DNA of 26,293 bases from a virus. This document shows positions 6,321 to 19,594 of this stretch, piece by piece; the stretch's first letter is position 1, and each line of letters opens with the position of its first letter. Position numbers and translations under genes: made by a program. The stretch is taken from positions 1-26,293 of IMG/VR virus record IMGVR_UViG_3300031629_000061, one strand, 5' to 3'. The notes under the pieces were generated by a model, which searched no databases, was not told where the DNA came from, and worked only from the letters and a program-made list of their open reading frames with translations.

Positions 6321-7880
6321 ATGGCTAAGCAATTACTAGCAGCCTCTATCGCAGCACCAGCATTCTTTGGTTTAAACACTCAAGAGTCTGGTGTAACACT
6401 GCAGGAAGGCTTTGCTTTACACGCGGACAACTGCGTTATAGATAAGTATGGTCGCTTAGGTGCACGTAAGGGCTGGGTTACGCGTAGTGCGTCAGTGGAC
6501 ACTGTAGCTGATGATAACGTAGGCATAGCTCTGACTGGCCTGAGTAACTTCAAGGACATCACTGGTACAGACATCCTTATGTCATGGTCAGCAGATACAT
6601 TCTACCGTGATATACCTGATCTTACTACTCTAGTCCCCACGACTACAGATACTATCACTGAGGGTAACTGGCAGACAGCTACACTTAATGATCATCATTA
6701 CTTTTACCAACGTGGCTATGAGCCTCTAATCTATACTAATGAGACAACTGCTAATGAGTTTGTAGCCTACGCTTCACATTCACACGCAACAGCTGGTTGG
6801 CAAAAGGCTAACACAGTCTTAGCTGGCTATGGTCGTCTGTGGACTGCAGACACTGCAACTAACAAAACTACAGTATGGTTCTCTGATGTACTAGATGGTG
6901 CTAAGTTCTCTACAGGCACTGCAGGCTCTATAGACATCTCAAGTGTACTCACGCAGGGTATGGATGAGATAGTTGCCCTAGGTGCACACAACGGTTACTT
7001 GATTATCTTTTGTAAGGATAACATTATCATATACAGTGATGGTGATAACTTTCAATTAGGTATGACTACTTCCAGCCTTACGCTAGTTGAGGTCATCCAA
7101 GGTGTAGGTTGTATCTCTAGAGACTCAGTACAGAACACTGGTGAGGACATATTGTTCTTAAGTAACACTGGTGTAAGGTCATTGAATCGTACAGTACAAG
7201 AGAAGTCTCAGCCAATGAGGGACATCTCTAAGAATATACGTGATGATATTATTCAAGCACTCAACTCAGAGGTATCCTTAGCTAATGTTAAGTCAGTATA
7301 CTCTCCAACTAATGCCTTTTACTTAATTACTTTCCCAGCTACTGAACAGACCTTTTGTTTTGATACTCGCCAAACTCTAGAGGATGGTAGCTTTAGGGTA
7401 ACAGTATGGCCTTCACTCACACCAGCTGGTCTACTATCACTTGAGTCTAAACTCTACTTAGCACAGCCTGATGGCATTGCTGAGTACTTTGGTTATCAAG
7501 ATGATGGTGTTAAGTATGAGATGGCTTACTACAGCAACTACTTCGACTTAGATATGCCTAACGTGAATAAGATAGTTAAGAAGCTATCAGCCACTACAGT
7601 AGGTGCCACTGGTCAAACATTTGCACTTAAGGTTGGCTATGAGTATTCACCAGTTTACTTCTCACAGACATTTACTATTGACACTGGTACAGTCTATGAG
7701 TATGGAGTAGCTGAGTATGGCATAGGTGAGTACTCAGGTGCAATCTTAATAGATAATCAACAAGCACCTACTCAGGGAGCAGGTAACATTATACAGATAG
7801 GTTTTACCACTGAAATCAATGGTGCACCTATGTCACTACAGAAACTATCAATATACGCCAAACAAGGTAAGGTACTCTAA
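6321..7880 (+). CDS. Tail nozzle / tail tubular protein B-like protein
   Basis: The protein has 519 residues. The N-terminal region contains FFGLNTQESGVTLQEGFALH followed by DNCVIDKYGRLGARKGW, a block typical of podovirus nozzle or stabilisation proteins (functional equivalents of T7 gp12 and P22 gp10). The centre holds repeated beta-propeller-like units (IVALGAHNGYLIIFCKDNIIIYSD; DILFLSNTGVRSLNR). The C-terminus is also beta-rich. It is shorter than T7 gp12 (about 790 residues). GGGAGG lies nine bases before the ATG. Gene order, adaptor then nozzle then fibre, supports the call. Confidence 0.75.
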   Translation: MAKQLLAASIAAPAFFGLNTQESGVTLQEGFALHADNCVIDKYGRLGARKGWVTRSASVDTVADDNVGIALTGLSNFKDITGTDILMSWSADTFYRDIPDLTTLVPTTTDTITEGNWQTATLNDHHYFYQRGYEPLIYTNETTANEFVAYASHSHATAGWQKANTVLAGYGRLWTADTATNKTTVWFSDVLDGAKFSTGTAGSIDISSVLTQGMDEIVALGAHNGYLIIFCKDNIIIYSDGDNFQLGMTTSSLTLVEVIQGVGCISRDSVQNTGEDILFLSNTGVRSLNRTVQEKSQPMRDISKNIRDDIIQALNSEVSLANVKSVYSPTNAFYLITFPATEQTFCFDTRQTLEDGSFRVTVWPSLTPAGLLSLESKLYLAQPDGIAEYFGYQDDGVKYEMAYYSNYFDLDMPNVNKIVKKLSATTVGATGQTFALKVGYEYSPVYFSQTFTIDTGTVYEYGVAEYGIGEYSGAILIDNQQAPTQGAGNIIQIGFTTEINGAPMSLQKLSIYAKQGKVL

Positions 7881-8680
7881 TGTCCAATTATATCAAAGCA
7901 ACTAACTTTGCAACTAAAGATGCCCTAACCACTGGCAACCCTTTAAAGACCCTAAGTGGTACTGAGATAGATGATGAATACACAGCTATTGCTACTGCAG
8001 TGGCTACTAAAGCTAACACTAGCTCACCTACGCTCACAGGAGTCCCCGCAGCACCTACAGCAGCTACCGCTACTACTAGCACTCAGATAGCTACTACGGC
8101 CTTCACACAGGCTGCTATAGTGGCTGGTGTGGCTGCAGTAACAGCTAGTGATGCTCTTAAGGCTCCTCTAGCTTCACCTACGCTCACAGGTGTCCCTGCG
8201 GCCCCTACAGCCACTGCTGGTACTAACACTACGCAACTAGCTACTACAGCCTTTACTACAGCAGCTATAACCGCTATCACAGCAGCAACTGTTAATGCTC
8301 TAGTGTATCCAGTGGGTGCTATCTATACTTCAGTAGTATCAACGAATCCAAACACTACTCTAGGTATGGGTACTTGGACAGCCTTTGGTTCTGGTAAGAC
8401 TTTAGTAGGTCTTAACTCTGGAGATACTGAGTTTGATACTGTAGAGGAAACTGGAGGTGCTAAGACGCATACATTAACAACTAATGAGATGCCTTCACAC
8501 ACTCATACAGGTACGCAGCTTAATGGTATATATAAGACAGACAATGGCAGTACTACATCAAGTACTACTTATGGTACAGTTAACAACACAGTAAGTACCA
8601 CAGGATCTACAGGTGGAGGAGCATCACATAACAACCTACAGCCCTACATCGTAGTGTACTTTTGGAAACGCACAGCTTAG
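7880..8680 (+). CDS. Tail fibre with two 50-residue repeats and gp53-like receptor-binding end
   Basis: The protein has 266 residues and starts in a TAATG overlap with the nozzle gene. The shaft contains two units 50 residues apart: SPTLTGVPAAPTA at 49-61 and 99-111, each followed by an ATTAFT.AAI segment at 71-80 and 121-130. The C-terminal domain runs from YPVGAIYTSVV through LGMGTWTAFGSGKTLVGL, EETGGAKTHTLT, MPSHTHTG and ends SHNNLQPYIVVYFWKRTA. That end is the knob found in many long tail fibres, where the HxH residues (here H207 and H209) help bind metal in known relatives. Its position next to the nozzle suggests it is the main fibre attached to the tail. Confidence 0.85.
   Translation: MSNYIKATNFATKDALTTGNPLKTLSGTEIDDEYTAIATAVATKANTSSPTLTGVPAAPTAATATTSTQIATTAFTQAAIVAGVAAVTASDALKAPLASPTLTGVPAAPTATAGTNTTQLATTAFTTAAITAITAATVNALVYPVGAIYTSVVSTNPNTTLGMGTWTAFGSGKTLVGLNSGDTEFDTVEETGGAKTHTLTTNEMPSHTHTGTQLNGIYKTDNGSTTSSTTYGTVNNTVSTTGSTGGGASHNNLQPYIVVYFWKRTA
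8024..8270 (+). repeat. 150-bp tandem repeat in the fibre shaft
   Basis: The unit starting at 8024 recurs at 8174, in frame, with the best-conserved part being the TCACCTACGCTCACAGG core and the later ACTACGGCCTT/ACTACAGCCTT segment. This produces the two 50-residue shaft units described for the enclosing gene. Confidence 0.75.
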
Positions 8681-15637: not shown

Positions 15638-17368
15638 CTAAGAGCATTCCTTCTGTCCAGTCTCAAAGTCAATATAACATGCCTGTGCTGCCTCCTCAGG
15701 TGCTGCCTTATCCTCAGCCTTAAGCTCCTCCTCTGGTTTATCGTTGAGGATACCAAAGCGTTTGCCACCTGAGTTGAACGTGGTACACCCCTTGCAGCCT
15801 TGCTCCCAAGCCTTAACGTAGATTGACTTAAAGTCCTCCCACGGCATCTCAGGTGAGCAGTTGATAGTCTTGCTTACTGCAGAGTCTACGTATTGCGAGC
15901 TTAACGCTAGTACAGCTAGGTGTTCATCAGCAGTACAGTCATTAGCTTTCTTACCTCGGACACCCCAAGTACGATAAGCATAATCCATTACTTCTTCCAC
16001 AATAGGCCCATTCTCGGTCTGAATAGTTCTATCGTAGCCATAACTAAACACAGGCTCAACACCACCGCTAACATTGTCTGCCGTGAGACTAATAGTGCCC
16101 GTAGGAGCAAAGCTAAGCAAATGGCTATTACGTATTCCATACTTCCTGATTCCTGCTCTAACTGTCTTTGGTAATGTCTTAATGAAATTACCTTTCAAAT
16201 ACTTATCAATCTCTAATGCTGGAAATGCACCCTTCTCTTTAGCTAAGGCTACTGAGGTGCGATATGTTTCATCACGAATAACCTTAAAGATGTCCTCTGC
16301 TACTTCTAGAAACTTAGGGCTACCATAAGAGAAGCCTAGTGCCTCTATAGCATTAGCTAAACCTGTGACACCCAACCCCATCCTACGCTTGTCTCTGCTC
16401 TCCTCAGCCTGCTTCTCAAGCGGAAACACAGTGTTATCATGTATGTTATCCATTGCTCTAGTCACTACAGGGATGTCCTGCATTAGCTGTGCAAAGTTAA
16501 ATGATCTGGTTCCTTCATCATCAAAGTCAATGTACTTCACTAGATTGTAGCTACCAAGCAAGCAGGCGCCATTAGGAGGCAAAGGCTGCTCACCGCATGG
16601 GTTAGTTGCTTCAATAGTCTCACAGTAGTATAGGTTATTCATCTCGTTAATACGATCAATAAACAAAACCCCAGGTTCTGCCCAGTCCCATGTGCTACGC
16701 ATGATCATCTCCCACAATGCTGGAGCAAAGATCTGCTTGTATACCCTTCCCTCGAACACTAGATCAAACATCTTCTTATCAATGACACAACGCATGAACT
16801 CATCAGTGATGCCTAAGGAGATATTAAAGGCTGTAAGCTCAGTTGAGTTTTGCTTAGCATGTATGAACTCTTCAATGTCTGGATGGTCTACACGCAGGAC
16901 ACCCATCTGTGCGCCCCTACGATGCCCTGCGCTGCTTACAGTCTTACACAGGCTGTCAAAGATACGCATGAAGCTAATAGGGCCACTAGCCTGTGATCCT
17001 AAGCTTACAATCAGGCTGCCCTTAGGACGCAATCGTGAGAAGTCGTAGCCTATGCCTCCACCCTTACGCATTGTCTTACCAGCTTCCTTGGCGCCATCCA
17101 TGATTGAGTTAAAGTCATCTTCTATAGGTGAGCTAACGAAACAATTGAATGCTGTGGTAGCCGTAGGTGACCCAATGGCTAACTGTGTACGACCGCCACC
17201 CATGAACCTTTGCTCCAGTAATATGTCACGTAGCTTATAGAAGTGTTCCTCACCATCCGCTAAGGTACTAGCAAATCTATTCTGTGCTTCCTTAAATGAC
17301 TCACCCTGCATACGATACTTAGTTGCATGTACCTCTTGGCTAAGGCGTGTCTGTGGGCCAGCGCTCAT
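15638..17368 (-). CDS. nrdJ: Class II (adenosylcobalamin-dependent) ribonucleotide reductase
   Basis: This enzyme reduces ribonucleotides to deoxyribonucleotides with a thiyl radical made from adenosylcobalamin, without a separate radical subunit; none is encoded nearby. Numbering from ATG 17368 (576 residues), C76 in AFNCFVSS and C269 are the redox pair, N256-P-C258-G-E260 holds the radical cysteine and catalytic Glu, and APTGTIS at 421-427 is the phosphate-binding loop. The tail cysteines C564 and C575 would be reduced by glutaredoxin or thioredoxin. The start at 17368 overlaps the upstream stop as ATGA, with GGAG seven bases before it; ATG 17395 would add nine residues. An N-terminal ATP cone is absent. 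Being last in the leftward operon, it ends close to the shared terminator. Need for host B12 uptake or synthesis is inferred. Confidence 0.93.
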   Translation of the reverse strand: MSAGPQTRLSQEVHATKYRMQGESFKEAQNRFASTLADGEEHFYKLRDILLEQRFMGGGRTQLAIGSPTATTAFNCFVSSPIEDDFNSIMDGAKEAGKTMRKGGGIGYDFSRLRPKGSLIVSLGSQASGPISFMRIFDSLCKTVSSAGHRRGAQMGVLRVDHPDIEEFIHAKQNSTELTAFNISLGITDEFMRCVIDKKMFDLVFEGRVYKQIFAPALWEMIMRSTWDWAEPGVLFIDRINEMNNLYYCETIEATNPCGEQPLPPNGACLLGSYNLVKYIDFDDEGTRSFNFAQLMQDIPVVTRAMDNIHDNTVFPLEKQAEESRDKRRMGLGVTGLANAIEALGFSYGSPKFLEVAEDIFKVIRDETYRTSVALAKEKGAFPALEIDKYLKGNFIKTLPKTVRAGIRKYGIRNSHLLSFAPTGTISLTADNVSGGVEPVFSYGYDRTIQTENGPIVEEVMDYAYRTWGVRGKKANDCTADEHLAVLALSSQYVDSAVSKTINCSPEMPWEDFKSIYVKAWEQGCKGCTTFNSGGKRFGILNDKPEEELKAEDKAAPEEAAQACYIDFETGQKECS

Positions 17369-17598
17369 AGCTCTACTCCATTCTCTAGCTTCCATATAAA
17401 GTAAGCATCCTCAAACATTAAGTCTCGCATAATAACTTCAATGGCAATGATAGAGCGTGTAAGGTCTACCACCTCAGAGGCATCTAGATAAGGCTCCATA
17501 TCATTGGAGATAAGTTCTGACTTAAGCTCATGATGCAGTTGATCTAAGTGAGTTACTGTGATTTGTTCCATCTGGCAAGGCTTTAGATTCAGTTTCAT
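17365..17598 (-). CDS. Small acidic hypothetical protein before nrdJ
   Basis: The gene encodes 77 residues starting MKLNLKPCQMEQ. The sequence is acidic and helical (HLDQLHHELKSELI; DASEVVDLTRSIIAIEVIMRDLM), ending with aromatic residues (AYFIWKLENGVEL). GAGAGA lies upstream of ATG 17598. The ATG of nrdJ overlaps its stop, so the two are likely translated together. The first 71 bases overlap the 3' end of the gene at 17528-17743 in another frame. No known domain was recognised, and a link to nucleotide metabolism is suggested only by position. Confidence 0.7.
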   Translation of the reverse strand: MKLNLKPCQMEQITVTHLDQLHHELKSELISNDMEPYLDASEVVDLTRSIIAIEVIMRDLMFEDAYFIWKLENGVEL

Positions 17599-17743: not shown

Positions 17744-17999
17744 CCATCCCACTCCTTAGTGCACCTATGACACCAAAGTGAAACAGTGCGTTAGCTTCTT
17801 CAGGTGACAAATATATCTCTATCGGTGATTTACTGAACTCATTGACTGATAGATGCACCAACCCATCGTTTATCCTCATCTGCTCAATCACATAATCTAA
17901 CCCAGACTTTATGAAAGACTTTACCTGCTTAGGTTCTACATCCATAGTCATTATGGCTGAACCATCTGTCTGATCTAGTATTTCTATTGCTTCACTCAT
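17706..17999 (-). CDS. Small hypothetical protein
   Basis: Start ATG 17999 (MSEAIEILDQTDG), 97 residues; the longer frame opens with TTG at 18020 and overlaps the previous gene further. GGAG and AGAGAG lie just upstream. The sequence is mixed alpha/beta with an acidic middle (DGLVHLSVNEFSKSPIEIYLSPEEANALFHF) and a charged C-terminus (DEQNKEETKDRR). No domain was recognised. It overlaps the genes on both sides by a few to some tens of bases, as is usual in this operon. Confidence 0.65.
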   Translation of the reverse strand: MSEAIEILDQTDGSAIMTMDVEPKQVKSFIKSGLDYVIEQMRINDGLVHLSVNEFSKSPIEIYLSPEEANALFHFGVIGALRSGMDEQNKEETKDRR

Positions 18000-18375
18000 G
18001 CTCTCTATACTCCAGCTCAATTTCCATTAGACTTCTAACCTGTGGATACATATTCTTCTGTGTATCCAGTACAGCCTCAAGATGTTCAGTCTCCATATCA
18101 GCAATAGCTATGTGAGACAGAGGTTGATCTCCTGCTTTACCATAGGTTCCCCAAGTTACAAACTCCCTTGCAATACTGTGTAAGACATCTTCAGTAAGGC
18201 TTAGGTCAGTAGCAGGTGCATTCTTATTGACAGTACGCCTAATATAATCCAACCCACCATCGACTACATACACCCAGCCATTAGCATCCTCATATTCCTT
18301 GTAGTCATGCCTATGCCGTGACTCTAATATGGTTCCGTCTGGTGTCTGTATGGCATTGCGTAATAGTCTACTCAT
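17992..18375 (-). CDS. Conserved hypothetical phage protein (RNAIQTPDGT type)
   Basis: The start is ATG 18375 (MSRLLRNAIQTPDGTILESR), with AGGAG seven bases upstream; ATG 18390 would give 132 residues but has no ribosome site. The 127-residue product contains LLRNAIQTPDGT.LESRHRHDY, VVDGGLDYIRR and WGTYGKAGDQPLSHIAIADM, landmarks that I recognise from a family found in early regions of lytic phages of Vibrio and related bacteria. The family's function is unknown to me. The alternating His/Arg and Gly-Asp motifs do not match a known catalytic pattern. It overlaps the upstream gene by eight bases. Confidence 0.75.
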   Translation of the reverse strand: MSRLLRNAIQTPDGTILESRHRHDYKEYEDANGWVYVVDGGLDYIRRTVNKNAPATDLSLTEDVLHSIAREFVTWGTYGKAGDQPLSHIAIADMETEHLEAVLDTQKNMYPQVRSLMEIELEYREHE

Positions 18376-18580
18376 CCTCAATCTCCTCATTAAGTTCAGC
18401 TAACTTGTTACCTAGCTCAAGTAACATCCAACTAGGCCATGCACAAAAACCTCCAGCATTGAAATAAATAACATACCCTGCATCAGTCTCACGTACTATC
18501 TCTGCTAATAGTGGGGTATTCTTTGCTGTTACAAAGAGGTCGGTTGTACCTTCTTGTGTTATGTATTGTAGTGAGTTCAT
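18368..18580 (-). CDS. Small hypothetical protein
   Basis: This 70-residue protein begins MNSLQYITQEGTTDLFV. Beta strands seem likely in the first half (TAKNTPLLAEIVRETDAGYVIYF), followed by an aromatic turn (GGFCAWPSWM) and an acidic helical tail (LLELGNKLAELNEEIEDE). The ribosome site is weak (GGGG in the previous gene's end). No family was recognised. The stop overlaps the start of the next gene. Confidence 0.6.
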   Translation of the reverse strand: MNSLQYITQEGTTDLFVTAKNTPLLAEIVRETDAGYVIYFNAGGFCAWPSWMLLELGNKLAELNEEIEDE

Positions 18581-18584
18581 CTTA

Positions 18585-18746
18585 CTAACCCCACGTTATG
18601 TATAGGTTTAACACTAGAGCAAGTGACATGATATTTAATAAGTTATGGATCATATTTGCCCTCTTTAGTATCTCAACATGCTTCTTTAATTCCATAACAT
18701 TACCATGTGTAATACGTAGGGCAGATTCTAGCTCATCGTTACTCAT
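18585..18746 (-). CDS. Small protein with one C-terminal membrane segment
   Basis: The start is ATG 18746 (MSNDELESALRITHGN), seven bases after AAGGAG; the longer frame from 18794 lies inside the previous gene. The product has 53 residues. Residues 1-33 are a charged helix (ELKKHVEILKRANM) and residues 34-53 are hydrophobic (LLNIMSLALVLNLYITW), consistent with a single membrane helix at the very end. Early small membrane proteins of lytic phages often act on host envelope or superinfection, but no such role can be read here. It overlaps the upstream gene by eight bases. Confidence 0.65.
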   Translation of the reverse strand: MSNDELESALRITHGNVMELKKHVEILKRANMIHNLLNIMSLALVLNLYITWG

Positions 18747-19023
18747 CTTCACTCTCCTTATGCCATTCCTCGTAAGGTACAAATCTAAAACCATCAGAAC
18801 AATTAATCATTACACATTTACCCATACCAAACAGAGCTTCCTGCATTAGGTTGAGTTCATCAGACATAGAAGCTGTTGCATCTTTCATTAGCATCTCTTG
18901 TGTATATGCCTCATCCTCTGTATACCTAGCTCGACTACATCCCATACCAAAGCCTTGCTCGTCCTTATGTACACCATTGACTACAGGGATACCACGTTGA
19001 CATCCGTCACATTGGTTATTCAT
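18739..19023 (-). CDS. Small protein with N-terminal CxxC motif
   Basis: This 94-residue protein is the first gene after the 19024-19238 control region. It starts MNNQCDGCQRGIPVVNGVH, where C5-x-x-C8 and the later C29 (GMGCSRARY) could form a metal site or be redox-active. Such C.GCQRG.PV..G starts occur in small early proteins of lytic phages. The remainder is helical and acidic (DEAYTQEMLMKDATASMSDELN), with a C-terminal FVPYEEWHKESEDE. GGAG lies eight bases upstream of ATG. Function unknown. Confidence 0.7.
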   Translation of the reverse strand: MNNQCDGCQRGIPVVNGVHKDEQGFGMGCSRARYTEDEAYTQEMLMKDATASMSDELNLMQEALFGMGKCVMINCSDGFRFVPYEEWHKESEDE

Positions 19024-19238
19024 TGTTCAATCTCCAGTGTACAAATTGCTTTACAGATGTTACTTAAACCGCTTTAGTGTAGCCTATAGTGTACAATGTA
19101 AACCTTGAGCTACACTTTAACGCGCTATTTAGTGTACAATGTACACATTTTTATGCACTTTAGTGATCTAGCTTTGACTATAATACTGTACAAATGAGCT
19201 GTTTAAGGCTGTTTTGACTAATATTATGAGCAAACATC
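19024..19238. promoter_or_regulatory. Non-coding control region with repeated GTGTACA palindromes
   Basis: This 215-base gap is the largest non-coding stretch inside the leftward operon and is AT-rich. AGTGTACAA occurs at 19036, 19088 and 19131. The third copy is a perfect palindrome, GTGTACAATGTACAC (19132-19146), and the second is the same with one mismatch (19089-19103), 43 bases apart. AGTGTAGC (19076-19083) pairs with GCTACACT (19109-19116) around the second copy. TTTGACTA is repeated at 19173 and 19213. It probably controls transcription of the small genes and nrdJ, but I could not find a convincing -35/-10 pair on the minus strand. Confidence 0.6.
19132..19146. repeat. Perfect 15-bp palindrome, operator-like
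   Basis: GTGTACA, a central A, then TGTACAC: seven-base arms with one central base. A one-mismatch copy starts 43 bases to the left (19089-19103), about four helical turns away, so a dimeric protein could bind both on the same DNA face. Confidence 0.7.
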
Positions 19239-19343
19239 TCAAGTATCTTCCCAAAATGTTCCACGCTTGTACAACTGCATTGCTGTATTCATGTCACAGT
19301 CAAAGCCGCTCATGATCTGCTCTAAGTGCTCTATGATTGCCAT
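19239..19343 (-). CDS. Very small protein translated with the glutaredoxin
   Basis: Start ATG 19343 lies inside the last codons of the glutaredoxin gene and stop TGA is at 19239-19241, giving 34 residues: MAIIEHLEQIMSGFDCDMN, then a TAMQLYKRGTFWEDT end. AGGAG lies 11 bases upstream, so reinitiation after glutaredoxin is likely. The sequence has normal amino acid content (helix then aromatic end) and fills the space up to the control region, which supports a real gene. No function is recognised. Confidence 0.5.
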   Translation of the reverse strand: MAIIEHLEQIMSGFDCDMNTAMQLYKRGTFWEDT

Positions 19344-19594
19344 GTGTTAAAGAACTCCTCTAGGTAAGCATCACTAGCCACATTGCCTACCATAGTATCC
19401 ATCATGACACCATTGTTATTATACGCAGCCAGCACTGGTATACTTCGCAACCCTAGAGCCTTAAGCTCCATAAGCATATCAGAGTCACCTACGTCACACT
19501 CCTCATAAGTGCTTAGCTCTAACTTAGCTAACCTACGCTTGAGTGAACTACATGCTGGACACGAGTCACCTGTGTATAGCTTAATGTTCATCAT
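19331..19594 (-). CDS. Glutaredoxin
   Basis: This 87-residue protein has the thioredoxin-fold layout of short phage glutaredoxins. It begins MMNIKLYTGDSCPACSSLK, with the redox pair C12-P-A-C15 after the first strand. IPVL near residue 53 carries the cis-proline, and VGNVASDAYLEEFF matches the final helix. Its length is close to that of other small viral glutaredoxins. It likely returns electrons to the class II ribonucleotide reductase at 15638-17368, whose tail has two cysteines. The start overlaps the stop of the small gene upstream (ATGA), and AGGAGA precedes it. Confidence 0.9.
   Translation of the reverse strand: MMNIKLYTGDSCPACSSLKRRLAKLELSTYEECDVGDSDMLMELKALGLRSIPVLAAYNNNGVMMDTMVGNVASDAYLEEFFNTWQS

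Follow-up and report, generated by a model that had tools for sequence, protein, structure and literature searches.

A putative operator dyad of TGTACA hexamers, doubled in an intergenic gap of a podovirus-type contig, recurs in unrelated marine phages

The stretch of DNA analysed here (the window) is IMG/VR virus record IMGVR_UViG_3300031629_000061, positions 1-26,293, 26,293 bp in length. It comprises a rightward half and a leftward arm carrying replication genes and nrdJ, and a gap at 19024-19238 separates the two halves of that arm. A sequence-only reading had described this gap as rich in palindromes, and each element it listed was found in place: AGTGTACAA at 19036, 19088 and 19131; the 15-bp GTGTACAATGTACAC at 19132-19146, palindromic save for its central base; a single-mismatch copy of this palindrome at 19089-19103, offset by 43 bp; an 8-bp inverted repeat (AGTGTAGC/GCTACACT) flanking the second copy; and copies of TTTGACTA at 19173 and 19213. 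A fourth, imperfect half site, ACTGTACAA, begins at 19185. The TTTGACTA pair looks incidental, since a single copy is intact in the relative L003 (by eye). A conserved ORF of 34 codons that had been overlooked adjoins the gap, which is why the latter stops at 19238. This ORF (19239-19343, minus strand) encodes MAIIEHLEQIMSGFDCDMNTAMQLYKRGTFWEDT, and counterparts of 32-34 codons are present in L003, L004, L006, L013, L030, L033, L096 and L112.

The palindromic copies belong to two directly abutting 43-bp units (19075-19117 and 19118-19160), whose common core is TGTACA-N-TGTACA (Table 1). With up to three mismatches allowed, the palindrome has seven matches in the window, four of them being the two gap copies counted on both strands, against a shuffle mean of 1.39 and a maximum of 5; none of 100 shuffles reached seven, and the earlier observation is thereby confirmed. 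The half site GTGTACA by itself was not enriched in the window (8 occurrences against 6.31 expected, with 32 of 100 shuffles as high). The four-turn spacing of the repeats had been read as a sign of cooperative binding; it is compatible with binding on one face of the DNA but is no proof of it, and the arrangement is better described as two abutting units, other carriers checked having one perfect core each. The window is unusual in having a second near-perfect unit abutting the first.

Table 1. Features in and around the gap of the leftward arm (window coordinates)
Feature	Positions	Strand or reading	Remarks
43-bp unit 1	19118..19160	minus-strand reading AAGTG-N10-TGTACATTGTACA-N10-CGTTA	perfect core, outer box on left only, right arm unmatched
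15-bp GTGTACAATGTACAC core of unit 1	19132..19146
43-bp unit 2	19075..19117	minus-strand reading AAGTGTAGC..TTTACATTGTACA..GCTACACTA	dyad, outer arms match, core one mismatch
Core of unit 2, single-mismatch copy GTGTACAATGTAAAC	19089..19103
Lone half site AGTGTACAA	19036..19044		near start of 94-aa gene
Imperfect half site ACTGTACAA	19185..19193		within candidate promoter
Candidate sigma-70 promoter TAAACA-17-TATAGT	19177..19205	-	9/12 matches, also in L003
TTTGACTA copy	19173..19180	+	judged incidental
Second TTTGACTA copy	19213..19220	+	disrupted in L003; judged incidental
94-aa gene	18739..19023	-	first of nrdJ half, downstream of sites
34-codon ORF	19239..19343	-	conserved, upstream of gap, overlaps end of thioredoxin-like gene
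Thioredoxin/glutaredoxin-like gene	19331..19594	-	upstream half
Ribonucleotide reductase (nrdJ of the sequence-only reading)	15638..17395	-	last gene of half downstream of sites

Two other proteins of the arm have distinctive relatives. For the 94-aa protein (MNNQCDGCQRG..), just the first 42-51 residues match the four relatives found and the remainder is unmatched, a pattern that would fit an N-terminal module attached to variable tails. The gene for a 132-aa protein (17992-18390, minus strand) is common to very different phages, with close homologues in the T4-like carriers L082 and G002 (E-values of 1e-39 to 1e-42).

Window-type podoviruses were gathered by searches with the DNA polymerase and the 94-aa gene. 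The core is present in the corresponding interval of L004, L006/L008 and L033, and by pattern in L096/L112, while the 39-kb podovirus G004 carries it directly after thyX. In L003, three neighbouring genes of which are 82-91% identical to those of the window over the matched parts, the core of unit 1 is replaced and that of unit 2 has two mismatches. Ten further window-type loci (L013, L030, L010, L017, L019, L021, L024, L047, L034 and L023), some truncated at contig ends, had no core within one mismatch in the stretch examined. The site is patchy even inside the window's own clade, because it is degraded in L003 and these ten loci are without the core. The sequence-only reading had tied its proposal to conservation of the palindrome in close relatives, which was borne out in several of them but not in L003 or at the ten loci. 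Across the podoviruses L065, L111, L006, L033 and L004, thyX, the site and a gene for a small membrane protein (MPATLVAA..) occur in various combinations, which suggests a mobile cassette.

The element extends well beyond this clade. In scans of IMG/VR, AAGTG-N{6,14}-TGTACAWTGTACA was found in 70 stretches of viral contigs. Although gaps of 6-14 between AAGTG and the core were permitted, 63 of 80 matches had a gap of exactly 10, symmetric sites and near-identical contigs being counted more than once. The form AAGTG-N10-TGTACA-W-TGTACA is present in unrelated marine phages. The full symmetric pattern was retrieved in 20 stretches, against about one or fewer expected by our own rough estimate, and a relaxed dyad, TGYNNC-N6-TRTACA-N-TGTAYA-N6-GNNRCA (core written TRTACANTGTAYA), in at least 120. 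The outer arms by themselves are not distinctive: among newly fetched loci, AAGTGTTTC-N-GAAACA had a gap of 25 in 40 of 114 matches and of 23 in 35, and most cases with a gap of 25 were without the core. A variant dyad of four TGTACA-like hexamers, spaced 12-7-12, lies in a noncoding-looking stretch of L280 (~7520-8000).

The carriers comprise window-type podoviruses, several T4-like lineages and other phages. In T4-like phages, the site is located before the clamp loader gene gp44, before hsp20, inside a gene for a 97-aa protein or among tRNA genes (some gene names by eye); in other carriers, it lies beside packaging or holin genes. Sixteen records were searched for further copies. Each of the 13 chosen as carriers had one perfect core, with a further one-mismatch place in one of them, and the three chosen as non-carriers had none. 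A 149-kb T4-like record had one perfect core and two one-mismatch places. Taken by its sequence pattern, the site appears to represent a viral operator class common to unrelated marine phages. Among the open-licence full-text matches listed for the sequence and related themes, we found no description of it. With site queries of 55 and 51 bp, which could miss variants, no match to an isolate record covered more than 56% of the query length. The nearest isolates do not indicate a host either, since the relatives of terminase, DNA polymerase and clamp loader point to different phages.

Bacterial genomes were searched for a corresponding regulon. In a scan of one genome for each of 84,980 prokaryote species, the exact pattern was found in only six stretches, and none of the six has both outer boxes (by eye). 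Genomes were also drawn around G016, which carries one core. GTGTACAWTGTACAC was present in one of 398 genomes of its phylum, namely G016 itself; TGTACANTGTACA was present in 3 of 100 genomes of its order, the seed counted; and the relaxed dyad with two mismatches occurred in 2 of the 240 genomes drawn from its class, a reversed control giving 1, which is chance level. Nothing beyond chance that would indicate a bacterial regulon was found in the 84,980 species with the exact pattern or in the 398, 100 and 240 genomes around G016, and the host may lie outside these samples. One of the bacterial matches, in L120 (a bacterial MAG, 1636-1663), places GTGTACAATGTACAC directly before genes that resemble those for an antitoxin of the ribbon-helix-helix kind and a toxin of the ParE kind (by eye), an association that is not general among the genomes around G016.

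A TTGACA-like hexamer (at least five of six matches) stands exactly 17 bp before the TACAWT of the core in 26 of 52 distinct dyads, which are not independent, many being gp44 promoters of one T4-like clade; each of the other spacers from 8 to 31 bp accounts for at most two dyads. In half of the distinct dyads, the core thus reads as the -10 box of a sigma-70-type promoter, and the other half have no matching -35. The window's own units have no -35 at this register, where TCACTA is found instead. The nearest sigma-70-like candidate in the window, TAAACA-17-TATAGT (19205-19177), is kept in L003, and units 1 and 2 would lie just downstream of its start; the promoter scan of the window overall gave 19 promoters against 22.0 in shuffles, that is, no excess. 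These results do not favour the earlier suggestion of a non-sigma-70 or phage-modified polymerase, given the sigma-70 -10 box elsewhere and the sigma-70-like candidate just upstream of the units. A phage RNA polymerase promoter was likewise rejected as the main reading, on the grounds of the single perfect copy in carriers and of a core that coincides with a sigma-70 -10 box in half of the dyads. The idea of a palindrome-based control region, by comparison, gains support from the core in the corresponding interval of several relatives, from its recurrence in unrelated phages and from its superimposition on a sigma-70 promoter in half of the distinct dyads. The further proposal of a switch that times the two halves of the arm goes beyond what this evidence supports.

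In group B, the site lies inside a gene of 97 or 98 codons, with no promoter match there. The comparison of L079 with L084 indicates constraint at the nucleotide level inside this gene: none of the 15 codons within the site differ, against 29 of the 47 codons compared outside it, where 15 differences are synonymous and 14 non-synonymous. In L089, the site has one amino-acid change and no synonymous change. L262, the homologue of the group B gene in G008, a phage with the site at gp44, is without the site. A single promoter-based role does not fit all cases, because the group B site is in a coding region without a promoter match.

The outer words of the dyad vary between phages (TTTC, TTGC, CACC, TACC, TAGC and others) and tend to match across it. 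For outer positions 6-9 in 17 representatives, only 4 of 2000 re-pairings were as good as the observed pairing, and identical YNN words were present in 34 of 57 dyads, against a control mean of 26.2 and a control maximum of 34. Over all 15 arm positions, symmetry was not above control (933 of 2000 re-pairings as high for 40 sites, 246 of 2000 for 17 representatives).

The gp44 promoter of T4-like phages was compared between relatives. We kept 80 gp44 loci, inspected 55 upstream regions and scored 37 promoters. Near relatives keep the promoter and differ in the palindrome over it, the kinds being the TGTACA dyad, ATATCAC-N7-GTGATAT, ATTATATCA-N4-TGATATAAT, AACACATTATAATGTGTT, TTGTAC-N8-GTACAA and TATACAG-N4-CTGTATA. 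An inverted repeat matched by at most 2 of 100 shuffles was present at 10 of the 37 promoters, 8 of the 10 not being of the TGTACA kind; the scorer is crude, and several promoters with an interrupted TGTACA dyad scored like shuffles. For the TATACAG palindrome of L330, 8 of 100 shuffles were as good. In a gp44 tree of 76 rows, the TGTACA label (21 rows) requires six changes, at least five of them forced by well-supported branches, and the classes are interleaved. Different clamp-loader promoter palindromes in related T4-like phages can be seen, for example, in L301, L320, L330, L355 and L316, and L126 (phage C48C1, ~6934-7012) has GGGAGT..ACTCCC around the -10 of its gp44 promoter (by eye). 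L077 has nearly the same promoter and operator before hsp20, and its gp44 is without the site. Ten records from isolates or single cells (cyanophages, phages of Stenotrophomonas, Acidovorax and Sinorhizobium, and AG-345-E15) showed no TGTACA site upstream of gp44, and gp44 of HTVC008M was not located within the 45 kb examined.

In a rival reading, the palindromes would be operators of phage-encoded repressors, through which phages considered virulent achieve immunity or time themselves, and turnover at gp44 would mirror changes in repressor specificity. The different palindromes at the same promoter in close relatives, interleaved on the tree, speak for this reading, but we consider it doubtful. 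Palindromes checked in three large T4-like records proved to be present at full strength only once each, which leaves no autoregulated repressor gene in sight, and a comparison of podovirus with T4-like carriers revealed no evident common DNA-binding protein. The Pfam families listed for 64 small ORFs (window and G004) include no regulator, many ORFs being unassigned and the window a fragment. Temperate-phage immunity regions have dyads over early promoters, usually several operators together with a linked repressor gene. The viral site resembles them in that dyad specificity turns over between relatives at gp44, and differs from them in its one full-strength copy and in that no linked repressor was found in the carriers checked.

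Podovirus carriers share with T4-like and other carriers ThyX, PhoH-like, GIY-YIG, MazG, ribonucleotide reductase and terminase proteins and a few small proteins, with no evident DNA-binding regulator in common. The Pfam families listed (25 of 30, covering 64 of the 72 small ORFs in the window and G004) include no DNA-binding regulator. The putative binding protein is more likely host-made than phage-made: supply by a common host is suggested because unrelated phages share the operator, no common DNA-binding protein is recognisable and the perfect copy is a single one in every carrier checked. In the same survey of the window and G004 (A1 members), three small ORFs match the Pfam family of T7 gp5.9 RecBCD inhibitors and one matches the CbtB family.

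A single copy per genome could also be sufficient for a site that acts independently of its location, as a decoy titrating a host regulator or in a tethering or partition-like function. The one perfect copy per carrier record checked, at places as varied as gp44 and hsp20 promoters, the 97-aa gene, tRNA genes and packaging or holin genes, would suit such a site. We regard it as improbable: half of the dyads keep strictly to the 17-bp promoter register, which would not be expected of a decoy, and titration would favour several copies.

The palindrome might instead act once transcribed, as an RNA hairpin involved in processing, termination or protein binding. The group B site RNA folds better than all of 200 shuffles (z -4.61) and the window RNA better than nearly all (z -2.58, 1 of 200 as good); the changed core of L003 still resembles a shifted hairpin (by eye), and the window core, with ATTTTT directly after it on the plus strand, was listed as terminator-like. 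Set against this, L004 and L096 fold weakly (18 and 8 of 200 shuffles as good), terminator-like sites number 5 in the window against 5.4 in shuffles, no Rfam match in the window exceeds the gathering score, and the core, where it is a -10 box (26 of 52 dyads), would lie outside the RNA made from that promoter. To an RNA element we give little probability. An intrinsic terminator in particular was rejected, the T run being on the antisense strand only, absent in L006 and reduced to four T in L033 (by eye). An origin of the palindromes by chance, in a gap rich in AT, might be favoured by the unenriched half site and the degraded units of L003; it is very improbable and is contradicted by the exact spacing that recurs in unrelated phages, the group B constraint with zero synonymous change within the site and the 17-bp register, besides the palindrome count that 0 of 100 shuffles reach.

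Several known regulators use comparable sites. LexA boxes are short palindromes over promoters, present also in some phages; the enterobacterial form, CTGT-N8-ACAG, is of even length, whereas the viral core is of odd length and has outer boxes at 12 bp. We presume from their spacing or symmetry that LexA, TyrR, NrdR and a CRISPR-repeat mimic do not fit the site.

The site recalls the operators of the YefM-YoeB and Axe-Txe systems (Phd/YefM antitoxins), which, in an excerpt of PMC7730913, consist of paired TGTACA hexamers over the promoter with a centre spacing of 12 bp. The outer and inner boxes of the viral site are also 12 bp apart, and the bacterial exact match in L120 lies just before antitoxin-like and toxin-like genes (ribbon-helix-helix/ParE-like, by eye). 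However, the viral arrangement is 12-7-12, with inner hexamers 7 bp apart and outer boxes that are only TGYNNC. No toxin or antitoxin gene was seen at the viral sites examined, the neighbours being gp44, hsp20, glycosyltransferase, holin, structural and unassigned genes; the Pfam families listed for the 64 small ORFs (25 of 30; window and G004) do not include Phd/YefM; and the L120 genes look like ribbon-helix-helix rather than Phd/YefM proteins. We do not file the site under YefM/Axe operators because its inner 7-bp spacing, its outer boxes and its gene context differ. A marine precedent for a phage promoter borrowing the site of a host regulator is offered by the Pho boxes of cyanophages, an excerpt of PMC10976474 reporting binding of host PhoB to some S-PM2d promoters by mobility shift. 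Unlike Pho boxes, for which the regulator is known, the present site is a dyad, the same in unrelated phages, and its binder is putative.

Returning to the gap, the reading of it as a region of promoter and operator in which a viral operator of wide distribution stands in two abutting copies, recognised by a putative DNA-binding protein, has in our judgement about an even chance of being right. We infer that a dimeric (or tetrameric) protein would contact both inner TGTACA hexamers, whose centres are 7 bp apart, and that the same protein would contact the pair of outer TGYNNC boxes, each 12 bp farther from the middle. The dyad covers a sigma-70 promoter from the spacer to past the start in many phages, where binding would block RNA polymerase. 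In the window, the units would exert their effect immediately past a weaker promoter, and the operon under their control would be the one with nrdJ as its last gene.

More tentatively, it is possible that unrelated virulent marine phages share a regulatory code in which a single promoter in each (that of the clamp loader or hsp20 in T4-like phages and, by extension, that of the nrdJ operon) is placed under one putative host-made dimeric repressor. The operator would be switched with a change of host, making it a readable host tag, and would tie replication to a physiological signal of the host. If a host regulator gates the replication genes of unrelated phages through a shared operator, the growth of marine phages would be tied to the physiological state of the host. 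Operator sequences could then link hostless viral contigs to their hosts, and the turnover of operators at one promoter would constitute a natural series for how phages adapt their regulation.
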